DNA from: Pigmentiphaga sp. NML080357
Lineage (GTDB): Bacteria; Pseudomonadota; Gammaproteobacteria; Burkholderiales; Burkholderiaceae_B
Assembly (NCBI RefSeq): GCF_002188465.1
Contig: NZ_NINW01000049.1
Location: 372,001-436,000 of the forward strand
Direction of reading: 5' to 3'
Length of the DNA stretch: 64,000 bases
The notes below the pieces were generated by a model. It was not told the origin of the DNA and did no database searches. It saw only the letters and a program-made list of their open reading frames with translations. Positions 1,964-61,882 of the stretch are shown one piece after another; position 1 is the first letter of the stretch; each line of letters starts with the position of its first letter. The translations under genes and the position numbers were made by a program.

Positions 1964-2932
1964 ATGAACGAGCCATACCCGTGTGCGCCGCTGATACGCG
2001 AGATCGGCCGGGGCAAGGACGGCTCCCGCGCGCTGGCGCGCGAGCCGGCGCGCGAATTGATGGGGGCGATGCTCGACGGCCGGGTGAGCGACCTGGAGCT
2101 GGGGGGCGTGCTGCTGGCGCTGCGGATGAAGGGCGAATCGGTGTCCGAGGTGGCCGGCTTCCTGGATGCCGCCGAAGCGCGCATGGCGCGCGTGACCCTG
2201 CCAGGAGGCGGCCCCGCGGTGGTCCTGCCTACCTACAACGGCGCCCGCCACGCGCCCAATCTGGTGCCGCTGCTGGCCTGGTCGGTGGCGCAGGCCGGCG
2301 TGCCGGTCCTGATGCACGGGCAGGCTTCGGACCCGAGCCAGCCCGGCGCCGGTTCAAATATCTCGCGGGTGCCGACGCTCGAGATCCTGGAGGCGCTCGG
2401 CATTCCCGCTTCTCCCGATACCGGGTCGGCCGCGCAGGCGCTGGGCGACCGGGGCCTGGCCTACCTGCCCCTGGCGGCGGCGAGCCCGGGGCTGGCGCGC
2501 CTGGTGAGCCTGCGCCGCATCCTGGGCGTACGCAACGTGGCGCATACCCTCGCCAAGCTGCTGCGGCCGGTGCGGGGCCCGAGCCTGTTGCTGTCGGCCT
2601 ATACCCATCCCGAATTCGGCGCCATGCTGGCGGAACTGTTCGCGCTGCGGCGCGAGCCGGCGCTGCTGATGCGCGGCACCGAAGGCGAAGCGGTGGCCAA
2701 CACCCGTCGCCCCCAGCGCATCGCGCGATGGCTGGACGGCGCGCAAGACACGGCGGTGGAAGGCGCCGAACGCGCCGAGGCGCAACTGCCCGGCCTGCCG
2801 CCGCGCGATGCCGCCGCCACCGCCGACTGGGTGCGCGCGATCCAGCAGGGGCGGGAATCCTTGCCGGCGCCGATCGCGGCCCAGCGCGACGCCATCCTGG
2901 ACACCGTCGCGCGCATGGGGAGGGCGGCATGA
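1964..2932 (+). CDS. ybiB: YbiB family protein (TrpD2-like DNA-binding protein)
   Basis: Homologue of the YbiB/TrpD2 family, which has the anthranilate phosphoribosyltransferase fold but binds nucleic acid rather than acting in tryptophan synthesis. Visible family marks are RELMGAMLDGRVSDLELGG near the N terminus, LPTYNGARHAPNLVPLLA, and GSNISRVPTLEILEALGI in place of the TrpD PRPP loop. The ATG at 1964 gives 322 residues. An upstream in-frame TTG at 1925 would add 13 residues without support. The stop overlaps the start of the next gene in ATGA (2929-2932), implying translational coupling to cbiX. The link to a chelatase is commonly positional and its function is not known from sequence. Confidence 0.85.
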   Translation: MNEPYPCAPLIREIGRGKDGSRALAREPARELMGAMLDGRVSDLELGGVLLALRMKGESVSEVAGFLDAAEARMARVTLPGGGPAVVLPTYNGARHAPNLVPLLAWSVAQAGVPVLMHGQASDPSQPGAGSNISRVPTLEILEALGIPASPDTGSAAQALGDRGLAYLPLAAASPGLARLVSLRRILGVRNVAHTLAKLLRPVRGPSLLLSAYTHPEFGAMLAELFALRREPALLMRGTEGEAVANTRRPQRIARWLDGAQDTAVEGAERAEAQLPGLPPRDAAATADWVRAIQQGRESLPAPIAAQRDAILDTVARMGRAA

Positions 2933-3555
2933 GCGCGCCCGCCCGGCCGCCCGAAGGGCGCGCTCCCTCCCCTGGGGAGGATGTCGCGCAGCGACAGGAG
3001 GGTAGTCCAGTGAGCGCGCCCGCCCGGCCGCCCGAAGGGCGCGCTCCCTCCCCTGGGGAGGATGTCGCGCAGCGACAGGAGGGTAGTCCAGTGAGCGCGC
3101 CCGCCCGGCCGCCCGAAGGGCGCGCTCCCTCCCTTGGGGAGGATGTCGCGCAGCGACAGGAGGGTAGTCCAGTGAGCTCGCGCGGCATCGTGCTGTTCGC
3201 CCATGGCTCGCGGGATCCGCAATGGGCGCGGCCGCTGGAGCGCCTGGCGCAGGCGGTGGGCGCGCGCGATCCCGGCGCGGCGGTCGAGACCGCCTTTCTC
3301 GAACTCATGCCCCCCACGCTGGAGACGGCGGTGGCCCGGCTCGTGGCCCGGGGTGCGACCGACATTGCCGTCCTGCCGGTATTCTGGGCGGCGGGCGGCC
3401 ACGTGACGCGCGACCTGCCGCGGCTGCTGGCGCAGGCCGAGGCGGCGCATCCCGGGGTCCGGCTCACGGCGTTGCCGGTCCTGTCCGAGCTGCCGGGCGT
3501 CCTGGATGCCGTGGCGCAAGCAGCGTTGCAGTCCGGCGCGGGCCGATCTCCCTGA
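2929..3555 (+). CDS. cbiX: Sirohydrochlorin chelatase CbiX with an N-terminal repeat-encoded extension
   Basis: The last ~127 residues form a short, single-domain CbiX (CbiXS type), which inserts cobalt, or iron/nickel in relatives, into sirohydrochlorin. The two metal-binding histidines are in VLFAHGSRDP and AGGHVTRDLP. Ahead of this core the frame runs through three exact-length 27-residue repeats (SAPARPPEG...EDVAQRQEG) encoded by an 81-bp DNA repeat. Translation could start at ATG 2929 (overlapping the ybiB stop), at GTG 3010 or 3091 between units, or at GTG 3172 directly before the core. Each GTG has AGGAGG eight bases upstream. The native enzyme most likely starts at 3172. The repeat tract resembles no domain I know and is probably dispensable. 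No other cobalamin genes are visible nearby. Confidence 0.88.
   Translation: MSAPARPPEGRAPSPGEDVAQRQEGSPVSAPARPPEGRAPSPGEDVAQRQEGSPVSAPARPPEGRAPSLGEDVAQRQEGSPVSSRGIVLFAHGSRDPQWARPLERLAQAVGARDPGAAVETAFLELMPPTLETAVARLVARGATDIAVLPVFWAAGGHVTRDLPRLLAQAEAAHPGVRLTALPVLSELPGVLDAVAQAALQSGAGRSP
2931..3173 (+). repeat. Tandem array of three 81-bp coding palindromic repeats
   Basis: Three head-to-tail units at 2931-3011, 3012-3092 and 3093-3173, nearly identical; the third has CTCCCTTGG where the others have CTCCCCTGG. The period of 81 bases keeps the reading frame. Each unit holds three inverted repeats. In unit 1 these are GCGCGCCC (2933-2940) with GGGCGCGC (2956-2963), the palindrome CCTCCCCTGGGGAGG (2966-2980), and TGTCGC-GCA-GCGACA (2982-2996). 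It then has AGGAGG (2996-3001) eight bases before a GTG. Removing all three units would restore ATGAGC, the normal overlap start of cbiX. A related pair of units occurs at 40815-40976. No spacers, transposase or flanking duplications are visible. Confidence 0.95.
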
Positions 3556-39491: not shown

Positions 39492-40816
39492 CGGCAGGCG
39501 AAGCGAGAGGCGGCGCGGAGACGGAGCGGGCGGCATTCGACGAGATCGGCAGGCACCTTCGTCACGACGAGGAGCTGTGGACCGATTTCGAGGCCTTGTG
39601 CCGGCACGGCGGACGCCTGGCAGGCACCGCGAGCGAGCGGGCCGCCCAGGACTGGTGCGAACACCAGTTGGCCGCCTTCGGCACGGTGTCGCGCGAGCCG
39701 ACATCCTATGCCGGATGGCGGTGCGACCATGCCGCATTGACGCGCCAGCCCGATGGCCTGCCGCTGGAGGCGGTTCCCCTGCTGGGAACGGCGTTCACGC
39801 CGCCGGAGGGGCTGGACTTGCCGGTGCTCGACCTGGGACGGGGGACGCCCGACATGATCGATGCCGCGGGCGATGCCGTCCGCGGACATGCGGTCATGGT
39901 CCGGCACGAGTATCCCTTTTCCTCCCAGACCGTTCACCGGCGCGTCAAGCTCGCCGCCGCACAGCGAGCGGGGGCGGCCGCCTTGCTGGTCGTCCAGCCG
40001 GAAGCAGGGATAGGTCCGGTGTCGGGCTCTTCGGGGCGGGCGGGCGGTCCGGGCATTCCCGCCATGGGCATTTCCGCCGAGGCTGCGCGGGCGCTGCAGG
40101 TTTCGGGCGCGCGTGTCCGCCTCGCCATCAGCGGGGAAGACCTGCCGCAGGCACGGACCGACACCCTGGTGCTCGACCTGCCGGGCGGCGAAGGCCGCCA
40201 AGCCGAAGAGCGCGTGGTGCTGTCCGCGCACATCGACGGCCATCCGCTGGCCGAGAGCGCCCTGGACAACGCGACGGGCGTGGCGGCGGCGATTGCGCTC
40301 GCCCGCGCATTCGCGCCCCGCATGCACGCCATGCGCCGAGGCCTGACATTGTGTCTGTTCAGCGCGGAAGAATGGGCCCTGAACGGTTCGCGCGAGTGGC
40401 TGGCGGCCCTGCCCGAGGCCCGGCGCGCGGCCATGGCGCTCAACGTCAACCTCGATTCGCTGGCGGGATCCGCCCGCCTGACCGCGCTGACCTCGGGATT
40501 CGATCGCCTGGGCGAATTCGCCCGGGCGGGCGCACGGCTGGCCGGCGGCGACCTGGGCGTTCATCTGCCGCTGATGGCCAACAGCGACCATGCGAATTTC
40601 GCGGCTTGCGGCATTCCCGCGCTGCGCCTGATCGCGGGATTCGACGAGCCGGACAGCGCGCTGCGCCTGCTGCTCACTCCCGCTGATACGAGAGCGCTGG
40701 TGGACGAAAAACACTTGCGCAACGCCACCCTCCTCGCAGCCGGCGTACTGTGGCGCGCCCTGCGCGCAGATAGCCTGGCCAGCCTGCGCGATCGCGCGGG
40801 CAAGGAGGCGGCATGA
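39488..40816 (+). CDS. M28-family metallopeptidase
   Basis: 442-residue di-zinc aminopeptidase-type protein. Zinc ligands are visible in SAHIDGHPLAESALDNATGVA (His, Asp), LFSAEEWALNGS (catalytic Glu and ligand Glu), NLDSLAG (Asp) and SDHANFAACGIP (His). A PA-like insertion (about residues 130-210) precedes the C-terminal catalytic half. No signal peptide is seen, so it is probably cytosolic and may hydrolyse a peptide or amide. The ATG overlaps the hydrolase stop. Its own stop overlaps the next ATG in ATGA, where an 81-bp repeat array begins, and the TGA itself belongs to that junction. Confidence 0.88.
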   Translation: MTAGEARGGAETERAAFDEIGRHLRHDEELWTDFEALCRHGGRLAGTASERAAQDWCEHQLAAFGTVSREPTSYAGWRCDHAALTRQPDGLPLEAVPLLGTAFTPPEGLDLPVLDLGRGTPDMIDAAGDAVRGHAVMVRHEYPFSSQTVHRRVKLAAAQRAGAAALLVVQPEAGIGPVSGSSGRAGGPGIPAMGISAEAARALQVSGARVRLAISGEDLPQARTDTLVLDLPGGEGRQAEERVVLSAHIDGHPLAESALDNATGVAAAIALARAFAPRMHAMRRGLTLCLFSAEEWALNGSREWLAALPEARRAAMALNVNLDSLAGSARLTALTSGFDRLGEFARAGARLAGGDLGVHLPLMANSDHANFAACGIPALRLIAGFDEPDSALRLLLTPADTRALVDEKHLRNATLLAAGVLWRALRADSLASLRDRAGKEAA

Positions 40817-42216
40817 GCGCGCCCGCCCGGCCGCCCGAAGGGGGCGCGTCCTCCCCCGGGGAGGATGTCGCGCAGCGACAGGAGGGTGGTCCAGTTAGCG
40901 CGCCCGCCCGGCCGCCCGAAGGGGGCGCGTCCTCCCCCGGGGAGGATGTCGCGCAGCGACAGGAGGCCACACCGGTGCGTCCGCGCGGTTCCGTCGTCGT
41001 GCTGGGCGCGGGTCTGGTGGGACTTGCCTGCGCCCACGCCTTGCAACGCGATGGGTTCACCGTGACGGTGGTCGATCGCGGAGGCGTCGGGGAGGGGGCG
41101 AGCTTCGGCAATGCCGCCCACATCGCCATCGCTTCCATCATTCCCCAGTCGACGCCAGGCATTATCGGGCAGACGATCCGGTTGTTGAAGGACCCCGCGG
41201 GTCCGCTCATCGTCCGGCCCGGCTATGCCGCCCGGCACCTGCCCTGGTTCGCCCGCTTCGTCGCACAGGGAACGGCCGAGCGCGCGCGCGCCGGAACCCA
41301 CGCCATGGCCGCGATGATGGCGCAAGCCTGGGACGCCTGGCAGCCCGTGCTGGAAGACATCGGCGGCGGCGAGCTGGTGCGCCAGTCCGGCGCATTGCAC
41401 GTCTTCGGCTCGCAGGCGGCATTGCGGGCTGCGCAGGCCGCCTACGACCTGCGGCGCAGCCTCGGGGTGACGTGCACGCCTGTCGATCTCGAACAGGCGC
41501 GGACCATGGAGCCCGCGCTCACCGAGCAGGTAGGCGCCGTCGTATGGATACCCGGGATGGGCTATGTGACCGACACGCTGGCTTTGGCGCGGCGCCTGGC
41601 CGAGCGTATCGAATCGCGCGGCGGCCGCATCTTGCGCGCGGAGGCGACGGGCGTGGACGCCCGCGGCGTGCGCACGAAGGAGGGACGGCTCGACGCAGAC
41701 CGCGTGGTGCTGGCCGCCGGCGCATGGTCCCATCGGCTGGCGCGCGGACTGGGCGTGGACATCCCCTTGGTCTCCGAGCGCGGCTATCACGTCATGCTGG
41801 CTCCGGGCAGCAGCCCGCTACGCATGCCGGTGTTGATGGTGGAGCGCAAGGTCGCGCTGACGCCCATGGCGGCGGGGATCCGGATGGCCAGCGTGGCGGA
41901 GTTTGCGGCGGCAGATGCCCGGGCGGACCATGCGCGGGCGGAGCGGGTGTTCCGCGGACTGGAGCGGTTCGTCCAGGGCCTGGACGCCGAGCCGGTTTCT
42001 AGATGGGTCGGCCCGCGCCCGTCCGTGCCCGACAGCCGGCCCATCCTGGGGCAGGCGCCCGGGGCGCCCCATGTCCTGCTCGCCTATGGACACGGACATC
42101 TGGGCGTCACTTTGGCGGCGTTGACGGGGCGCGTGATCGCCGACGTCGCGAGCGGCCGCGACCCGGGCATAGACATGCGCGCGGTCGCCCCGCTCCGGAG
42201 CGCGCGGCTCAGGTAG
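40813..42216 (+). CDS. DadA-like FAD-dependent D-amino acid oxidoreductase with repeat-encoded N terminus
   Basis: The conserved enzyme starts near residue 58 with VVVLGAGLVGLACAHALQRDG (FAD loop) and VVDRGGVGEGASFGNAAHI. It ends with SVPDSRPILGQAPG and LLAYGHGHLGVTLAALTGR, as in the DAO/DadA family that deaminates D-amino acids or related amines. Before it, two 27-residue repeats (SAPARPPEG...EDVAQRQE) are encoded by the 81-bp repeat. Possible starts are ATG 40813, overlapping the peptidase stop, or GTG 40975 after the array, preceded by AGGAGG. The boundary between units has GTT instead of GTG. The native enzyme (about 413 residues) probably starts at 40975. Confidence 0.87.
   Translation: MSAPARPPEGGASSPGEDVAQRQEGGPVSAPARPPEGGASSPGEDVAQRQEATPVRPRGSVVVLGAGLVGLACAHALQRDGFTVTVVDRGGVGEGASFGNAAHIAIASIIPQSTPGIIGQTIRLLKDPAGPLIVRPGYAARHLPWFARFVAQGTAERARAGTHAMAAMMAQAWDAWQPVLEDIGGGELVRQSGALHVFGSQAALRAAQAAYDLRRSLGVTCTPVDLEQARTMEPALTEQVGAVVWIPGMGYVTDTLALARRLAERIESRGGRILRAEATGVDARGVRTKEGRLDADRVVLAAGAWSHRLARGLGVDIPLVSERGYHVMLAPGSSPLRMPVLMVERKVALTPMAAGIRMASVAEFAAADARADHARAERVFRGLERFVQGLDAEPVSRWVGPRPSVPDSRPILGQAPGAPHVLLAYGHGHLGVTLAALTGRVIADVASGRDPGIDMRAVAPLRSARLR
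40815..40976 (+). repeat. Tandem pair of 81-bp coding palindromic repeats
   Basis: Two units at 40815-40895 and 40896-40976, related to those at 2931-3173 but with shared differences, for example GAAGGGGGCGCGTCC instead of GAAGGGCGCGCTCCC, and CCTCCCCCGGGGAGG as the central palindrome. The hairpin TGTCGC-GCA-GCGACA and AGGAGG are kept. The last 11 bases of unit 2 (CCACACCGGTG) differ from those of unit 1 (GTGGTCCAGTT), although the length is equal. The array lies on the ATGA overlap between peptidase and oxidase genes, in the same arrangement as at cbiX. Confidence 0.93.
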
Positions 42217-60088: not shown

Positions 60089-61882
60089 ATGTCGGGAAGT
60101 GGCAATCGCTTGGCGCGCGTACTGGAGTTCCGCTGGGACCGCTCGACGCAGGTGCTGGAGCAGGCCATCGATGCGGTGGTCAGTATCGACCAGCACAACA
60201 ACGTGACCTTCTACAATGCCGCCGCCGAGCGGCTCTGGGGATACACCCGTGCCGAGGTTATCGGCCGTAACGTGAAGATGCTCGTGCCCCAGGCCATCCA
60301 GGCGGCGCATGACGGCTACGTGAATGCCAACCGCGAGACCGGCCGCAACAAGATCGTGGGAACCAGCCGCAAGGTACAGGTCGAGCGCAAGGACGGCGGC
60401 AAGGTCTGGGTGAGCCTGTCGCTGTCGCGGGTGCAGATCGGCCGGCACATTACCTATACCGCCTTCGTGCGCGACATCACGGCCCAGCACGAGGAGCGCG
60501 AGACCATCAACCAGACGCTGGAGCAGGCCCTGGACGCCGTCGTCTCCATCGATGAACGGAACAACGTCACGTTTTTCAACGCCGCGGCCGAGCGCTTCTG
60601 GGGCTATGCGCGCGACGAAGTGCTGGGCCGCAACGTGAAGATGCTGGTGCCACGGGGCATCCAGCCCATGCACGACGACTACGTGGATGCCAATCGCAAG
60701 ACGGGCCGGGACAAGATCGTAGGCACCAGCCGCGAGGTGCAGGTCGAGCGTAAGGATGGCACCCTGGCCTGGGGGGCGTTGTCGCTGTCCAAGATCCGCG
60801 TCGGCGAGCGCATCGTCTATACCGCGTTCGTGAAGGACATCTCGCGCGAGCGCGAAGTGCGGGAGGTCATCAACCAGACGCTGGAGCAGGCCCTGGATGC
60901 CGTCGTGTCCATCGATGGCGAAAACAACGTGACCTTCTTCAACGCGGCGGCCGAGCGCTTGTGGGGCTACGAACGGTCGGAGGTGGTCGGGCGCAACGTG
61001 AAGATGCTGGTGCCGCATGCCATCCAGGCCGTGCACGACAGCTACGTGAACGCCAACCGCAGCACCGGCGTGGACAAGATCGTAGGCACCAGCCGCGACG
61101 TCCTGATCGAACGCAAGGATGGTTCCTCGGTATGGGGCAACCTGTCGCTGTCGCGGGTACGCGTGGGCGACCGCGTGACCTACACCGCTTTCGTCAAGGA
61201 CATCACCCGCGAGCGCGACGCGCGCGAAATGATGAACCAGACGCTGGAGCAGGCGCTGGACGCGGTGGTCACCATCGACGAGAACAACCTCGTCACCTTC
61301 TTCAACGCCGCGGCCGAGCGGATGTGGGGCTACCGCCGCGACGAGGTTATCGGCCGTAACGTGAAGATGCTCGTGCCGCAGGCCATCCAGGGCGACCACG
61401 ACCGGCTGGTCCATGCCAACCGCAGCACCGGCGTGGACAAGATCGTGGGCACCAGCCGCGAAGTGCCCATCGAGCGCAAGGACGGCACCCGCATCTGGGG
61501 ATTGCTGTCGCTCTCGAAGATCCGGCTGGAAGGCAAGATCGCCTATACCGCCTTCGTCAAGAACGTGCAGGCCGAGCACGAGGAGCGCCAGACGACGCAC
61601 AGCGCGATGAGTTCCGTGCTGGCCTCGAGCGAGCAGATCGGCCAGATCGTGGCCGTCATCAACGAGATTGCGGCGCAGACCAACCTGCTGTCGCTCAACG
61701 CGGCAATCGAAGCCGCTCGCGCGGGCGATGCGGGACGGGGCTTCGCCGTGGTGGCCGACGAGGTTCGCAAGCTGGCGATGCGCTCTTCCAAGTCGGCCGG
61801 CGAGATCGACGGCCTGGTCGAGGAAACCAAGAACCGCATCAGCGAACTGGCCCGGTCGCTGCACCTGCACGAACAGGCCTGA
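60089..61882 (+). CDS. Cytosolic methyl-accepting chemotaxis-type protein with four PAS domains
   Basis: 597-residue soluble receptor with no transmembrane helix or HAMP. Four PAS domains of exactly 121 residues each begin at about residues 23, 144, 265 and 386 (each [27 protein letters not shown]...GRNVKMLVP). The last ~90 residues hold the MCP hairpin tip, with [16 protein letters not shown] and [12 protein letters not shown]. The signalling coiled coil is much shorter than the usual ~250 residues, and no methylation helices are apparent. PAS domains of this type often sense redox or oxygen via a cofactor. Start ATG 60089 has AGGAG. No other chemotaxis gene is nearby. Confidence 0.9.
60155..61606 (+). 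repeat. Four tandem 363-bp PAS-domain repeats
   Basis: Repeats start at 60155, 60518, 60881 and 61244, each exactly 363 bases with no indels. They share long identical stretches, such as the codons for [16 protein letters not shown] and ERKDG. Near-identity at both protein and DNA level points to recent duplication or ongoing gene conversion. Confidence 0.95.

Follow-up and report, generated by a model that had tools for sequence, protein, structure and literature searches.

The repeat at the start of cbiX in Pigmentiphaga sp. NML080357 is an interspersed mobile repeat, as judged by dispersed copies in this and other genomes and by orthologous sites at which it is absent. It is likely to be a small non-autonomous element, 81 or 83 bp long, that has recently spread to the RTGA stop/start overlaps of operons. 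Its units are probably tolerated at these overlaps because each unit supplies the second gene with a new ribosome-binding site and start codon.

Two unit arrays in the window

In the 64,000-nucleotide stretch of DNA analyzed here (the window), the start of cbiX carries three head-to-tail 81-bp units on the forward strand (positions 2931 to 3173), each 27 codons long; TRF delimited the tract at 2930 to 3181, with period 81, 3.1 copies, and 98% matches. The upstream gene (1964 to 2932, forward strand), named ybiB in the initial annotation and found by domain search to contain glycosyl transferase family 3 domains, ends at the TGA at 2930 to 2932. This stop lies over the old start codon, ATG 2929 to 2931, and the resulting ATGA (2929 to 2932, forward strand) forms the left border of the array, as seen in the sequence and in six sister orthologues where the overlap is empty and both frames are present. 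Unit 1 (2931 to 3011), which was recognized by sequence, TRF, folding, and the covariance model, contains hairpins 1, 2, and 3, a Shine-Dalgarno (SD) sequence at 2996 to 3001, and a GTG at 3010 to 3012. By sequence and blastn, unit 2 (3012 to 3092; SD at 3077 to 3082, GTG at 3091 to 3093) is identical to unit 1, and unit 3 (3093 to 3173; SD at 3158 to 3163, GTG at 3172 to 3174) has one difference, both being on the same strand. Thus, the three near-identical 81-base units described in the initial annotation, each with three inverted repeats and each ending in AGGAGG, eight bases, and GTG, were all located, and the inverted repeats of the window unit fold as three adjacent hairpins.

The cbiX gene itself (PF01903; 3172 to 3555, forward strand) is probably read from a unit-supplied GTG, on the evidence of frame, domain search, and solved relatives. 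The CbiX domain (E = 3.2e-28) starts at residue 11 of the protein begun at the last GTG; therefore, the repeat contributes nothing to the domain, and GTG 3172 to 3174 is the likely CbiX start. The frame from ATG 2929 is also open across the three units into CbiX (3 × 27 residues), in agreement with the earlier statement that a period divisible by three would add residues in frame. A consensus scan of the array found no promoter or terminator.

The initial annotation was correct about the cbiX array and overlooked a second one in the same window (40815 to 40976, forward strand), which consists of two 81-bp units and was identified by TRF, blastn, and orthologues with one unit or none. Here the stop codon of an M28-peptidase gene and the former start codon of an oxidoreductase gene overlap in the ATGA at 40813 to 40816 (forward strand; sequence and domain search). 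The last unit ends with AGGAGG (40961 to 40966), 8 nt, and GTG (40975 to 40977), and this unit-supplied GTG begins the FAD-dependent oxidoreductase (DAO by domain search; 40975 to 42216, forward strand). At the inner junction, GTT (40894 to 40896) is found in place of GTG, so there is no start codon at that point. The window contains five copies of the 20-mer TGTCGCGCAGCGACAGGAGG, three in the cbiX array and the others at 40866 and 40947, compared to none in 100 shuffles. TRF also reported a 363-bp unit repeated 3.8 times with 77% matches at 60154 to 61516, which we presume may belong to a multi-domain sensor gene.

Copies and host range

A search for the unit beyond cbiX, as the initial annotation had proposed, showed that further copies are present both in this genome and in other genera. 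In its own genome, blastn gave 30 matches at 16 places, and a search for the core that allowed two mismatches or fewer gave 26 matches compared to none for the reversed control. Two contigs terminate inside an array, C46 at its end and C4 at its start (L013 and L014). Because an orthologue in a sister genome (L275 in G002) joins their flanking genes, a TctC receptor gene and an FMN dehydrogenase gene, the two contig ends look like parts of one array, which leaves about 15 places; the assembly break between them was probably caused by the repeat.

The exact core was present in 7 of the 11 genomes of the genus, its own included. The collection of named genomes yielded 71 stretches, mainly from Alcaligenaceae-type (Pigmentiphaga, Verticiella, and Candidimonas) and Rhodocyclales-type (Thauera, Azoarcus, Aromatoleum, Methyloversatilis, and Zoogloea) bacteria, some of these stretches not being copies (L060 and L104 have only the core in common, and L077 and L078 only the right half). 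With a covariance model, units were detected in at least 17 of the 151 family genomes searched (at a threshold of E 1e-4) and in at least 6 of 300 genomes of the order (threshold E 1e-6), a patchy distribution. Matches to this model numbered 28 in its own genome and 54, 88, 22, 28, and 16 in five others that were picked for their richness, G072 and G183 being counted as one genome since their coordinates are identical. The genome with 54 matches, G056, is complete and consists of a single contig. Plasmids, phages, and viral contigs contained no match to the unit (viral sequences by exact 20-mer), and Rfam gave three chance-level matches far below the gathering score around the window array and none at five loci.

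Two kinds of partly similar sequences were also seen. The Rhodocyclales-type sequences L056, L082, and L100 are longer and modular, with similar ends and one or more extra hairpins in mid-element. L077 and L078 lie on contigs labelled as alphaproteobacterial metagenome-assembled genomes, and in L077 the right half of the unit is within an open frame.

Units also differ by genome. The subfamily mark GCGCTCCCTC was carried by 23 of 26 own units compared to 1 of 20 sister units. It is found on the own units at trpC-ung and birA-coaX as well, where the sister units have other marks. This pattern points to recent spread, or homogenization, within the genome.

Empty sites in sister genomes

Twelve own loci (C24, C56:96 kb, and C12 were left out) were compared with orthologues from one to ten sister genomes, and at all 12 at least one sister orthologue lacked the unit. 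At 11 of them, at least one empty orthologue has an RTGA stop/start overlap precisely where the unit would start; at the twelfth, C34, the flanking genes are convergent. The unit was private to its own genome at nine loci among the orthologues read. For instance, all nine sisters read lack a unit at cbiX, and in six of these the ybiB frame ends at an ATGA that also provides an ATG in frame with cbiX. Since six sister species have this plain ATGA, precise removal of the units would yield the usual junction, as had been predicted for the overlap with ybiB. The possibility that the repeat is an ordinary protein domain, found in all CbiX homologues and without copies elsewhere, fails on both counts.

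Other loci were occupied in some of the sisters. At the peptidase-oxidoreductase junction, two units are present in the own genome, one in G007, and one, shortened, in G008, and six other genomes are empty. This locus also gave the cleanest pair: the empty site of G004 reads GGGC-ATGAGCGGTTCGG compared to GGGC-ATGAGCG...CCA-GTGAGCGGTTCGG in G007, where the filled site differs from the empty one by 81 additional bp and by an A-to-G change in the start codon. At trpC-ung, the own genome has two units and G008 and G009 one each, six genomes have an empty RTGA, and G004 has a short remnant. At birA-coaX, the own genome has one unit, G002 has three, G004 has one without its right end, G007 has a remnant, and G003, G008, and G009 have an empty ATGA. 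The remnants at birA-coaX in G007 (L195) and at trpC-ung in G004 (L165) are short, in-frame left ends encoding MSAPAxPP, and from their sequences they look like deletion scars.

At the remaining pairs, some of which are named from one gene only, no sister had a unit: livG-livF type pair (4 of 4 empty), ring hydroxylase-SDR (3 of 3), TctC receptor-FMN dehydrogenase (1 of 1), permease pair (9 of 9), branched-chain permease pair (6 of 6), TetR-type regulator-tyrosine recombinase (6 of 6), amidohydrolase-esterase (6 of 6), and sulfate permease end (7 of 7). Because more distant relatives also have a plain ATGA at birA-coaX, gain of units at empty sites, not loss, appears to be the simpler reading.

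Position at gene junctions and folding of the unit

Array sites were gathered from the own genome, the genus, and the named genomes (94 in all), and 81 were analyzed, 12 being too near an end and 1 not element-like. A supported codirectional downstream gene was found at 79 of these, and 66 of the 79 had a clean left start. Some trends were apparent. First, at 57 of 81 sites the upstream stop coincided exactly with the left border of the array (offset −52 in 35 and −54 in 22; P = 1e-11 against the one third expected for a random frame), for sites that were picked by core and not by position and that, since many share ancestry, are not independent. Second, the upstream stop was part of an ATGA at 61 of 81 sites. 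Third, an in-frame start codon followed AGGAGG by 5 to 9 nt at 64 of 79 sites; by position alone, the right-hand start was usually at +8 (68 of 93 sites). The genes flanking the units were unrelated from locus to locus.

The pattern was weaker in the complete genome G056, of whose 54 matches 25 loci were read, than in the 81-site set: the stop was exactly at the left end (−52) in 12 of 25 (P = 0.09) and between −69 and −49 in 19, and an in-frame right start was present in 15. At some loci (L351, L362, and L365 of G056, and L061, L064, and L069), the upstream frame continues to an RTGA at or past the right end. Some copies lie outside stop/start overlaps, an example being the one at C34 between its convergent genes.

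An alignment of 50 diverse units (93 columns) showed that helix 1 covaries, with double changes in six of its eight pairs. Across the 20 helix pairs, 49 cells were doubly changed compared to 14.6 in shuffles and 10 or fewer when the partner was slid. The constancy of helix 3 and of the SD is partly a selection artifact because both are inside the search core. By eye, three hairpins were seen in 9 of 13 folded units, with helix spacings of mostly 2 or 4, then 1, and then 0 nt. In the minimum-energy fold, the median number of unpaired exterior nt from stop to SD was 3, compared to a shuffled mean of 6.2, the value being lower in 60 of 68 units. Such a compact fold, as modeled, may hold the stop and the SD close together. 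Accessibility of the SD was not clearly better than in shuffled sequences (0.437 versus 0.418, with 40 of 68 units exceeding the shuffled value; P = 0.06). The unit ends are direct, not inverted, repeats of TGAGC. These bases may be part of the element; at cbiX, the sequence in six sisters is TGACG, and a target-site duplication is not clear.

Several of these features might instead mark a cis-regulatory RNA module that is under selection at operon junctions and whose three hairpins adjust the translational coupling between the two genes or the stability of their mRNA. Its position and orientation at junctions, the covariation of helix 1, and the compact fold between stop and SD are all consistent with such a role. 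However, the flanking genes are unrelated, only one species has the unit at 9 of the 12 loci as far as orthologues were read, the subfamilies follow genomes, the element is patchily distributed, and access to the SD is not clearly above the shuffled level. We therefore regard an RNA module as unlikely.

Read-through peptide or own start

The 66 sites with a clean left start were almost evenly divided: 32 were in frame with the downstream gene, 31 of these being open, and 34 were out of frame. The right-hand start was kept at 25 of the 32 in-frame sites and at 32 of the 34 out-of-frame sites. Because almost all out-of-frame copies keep their own start, the peptide is optional, and both sets together mean that nearly all versions can use the start of the unit itself. 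Loss of the right start was more frequent in frame (7 of 32) than out of frame (2 of 34), a difference that is suggestive only (P = 0.08); it strengthens post hoc to P = 0.027 without L078, which is not a real copy, and to P = 0.011 without L078 and L098, which has CTG there. Read-through is thus an option of the 81-bp form that is needed where the right start has been lost. Variation by codon position in 21 distinct own units gave no clear sign of protein-level selection on the peptide (32, 29, and 42 changes at positions 1, 2, and 3; P = 0.26).

The initial annotation had likened the repeat to coding palindromic elements such as RPE, in which case the benefit, or the tolerance, would lie in the 27-residue N-terminal peptide. 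That 81 bp is a multiple of three with an open frame, that about half of the left starts are in frame and nearly all of these open, and that seven in-frame sites must be read from the left ATG would agree with this. However, the out-of-frame sites, 32 of them with a right-hand start, the codon-position profile with no clear constraint, and the placement of units at gene starts and not within genes make a coding element very unlikely. What stands of the comparison is a repeat family; a mainly coding insert does not fit the junction position and the copies, about half of them, that are out of frame.

Comparison with known systems

The unit behaves like selfish repeats of the MITE or REP type and has, in addition, an RPE-like option; the tests below do not place it in any of these groups. 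MITEs are, like the unit, non-autonomous, short, and precisely inserted, with hairpins and empty sites, and the same is true of palindrome elements derived from IS200/IS605. Unlike MITEs, the unit has direct rather than inverted short ends and no clear duplication, and no partner transposase was found for it, Y1_Tnp being the only family searched. With REP/BIME and their RAYT, it has in common short GC-rich palindromes that are both dispersed and clustered; it differs from them in its location at a stop/start overlap with an SD and start codon and in its head-to-tail 81/83-bp units with three different hairpins. The Y1 transposase expected for REP/BIME was also missing: Y1_Tnp (PF01797) was absent from 11 of 12 distinct host genomes (12 of 13 entries), among them the own genome and the complete genome G056, with only G182 positive, whereas the same search detected it in 5 of 14 control genomes. 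Mobilization by a RAYT/Y1 enzyme is therefore not supported.

A REP is described as a 20- to 40-bp palindrome tagged GTAG or CGTC (PMC3733652). The unit does not match this description, being 81 or 83 bp long with three hairpins and having its GTAG 3′ of the hairpins. RPE are dispersed palindromic repeats readable in frame (PMC10969869); as far as that source describes them, they are ∼150 bp and fuse with the open reading frames that they enter, whereas the unit lies at gene junctions, is out of frame at 34 of 66 sites, and has a translation that is dispensable. In Bordetella, the Bor repeats and families Bor-1 to Bor-6 are repeated stem-loop sequences (PMC1590033, PMC2267715). The Bor repeats are REP-like and 26 to 30 bp long in these accounts, compared to 81 or 83 bp for the unit. 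Bor-4, compared here by its description only, is 81 bp and is described in coding sequences with a common protein domain, and there may be a link between it and the unit.

In the parts consulted, published work covers REP-like Bor repeats, RPE fusions, ATGA coupling, and other start-site repeats (PMC2267715, PMC1590033, PMC10969869, PMC6728339, PMC4679880). A literature search that included sequence strings of the unit, and that took in few subscription papers and no supplements, found no description of the element. SD motifs are reported often to matter for re-initiation at overlapping genes (PMC6728339), which fits with a replacement SD making insertion tolerable.

Proposed mechanism and implications

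We propose that transposition, or some equivalent process, places a copy of the unit at an RTGA overlap and that the unit survives by virtue of its portable start signal. The unit would begin at the TGA of the overlap, with the upstream gene retaining its stop, and its body would fold into three tightly packed hairpins between the stop and the SD. The old start would be left behind, and the second gene would start from the AGGAGG of the unit, 8 nt, and a new RTGA(GC). Because the stop is preserved and a new SD and start are supplied, insertion would leave both proteins intact; because the right end recreates the RTGA(GC) target, units could stack head to tail. With the 81-bp form, a ribosome from the old ATG may continue through the array, each unit lengthening the protein by 27 residues. 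With the 83-bp form, there would be no read-through, and the unit's own start would be used.

Neighbors at one site have private variants in common, for example the GTCC/GGAC pair of L017, which suggests that much of the tandem growth is local duplication. That the array is nothing but a plain tandem duplication of the local cbiX leader (VNTR), or an assembly artifact, is hardly credible and as a full account refuted: near-identical tandem copies at cbiX and two contigs ending within an array would suit it, but the unit occupies about 15 places in its own genome and recurs in a complete single-contig genome, and sister orthologues are empty at the same base. Local copy-number change is still part of the picture.

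Beyond the interspersed element itself, we tentatively raise the possibility, toward which we do not yet lean, of a class of transposable elements that home on stop/start overlaps. Its members would have RTGA(GC) as the recognized sequence, a portable, hairpin-compacted body for re-initiation, and an enzyme outside the known REP-type (Y1) machinery. In such a class, insertion would be tolerated at the point where operons are most sensitive. More generally, the unit would be a mobile repeat with a translation start as its cargo, selfish DNA that enters operons without breaking them. It would rewire coupling at ATGA junctions and add optional N-terminal peptides to unrelated proteins, and it would mislead start-site annotation and break short-read assemblies. 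With empty and filled loci available in sister genomes, the cost of losing ATGA coupling would be directly testable.
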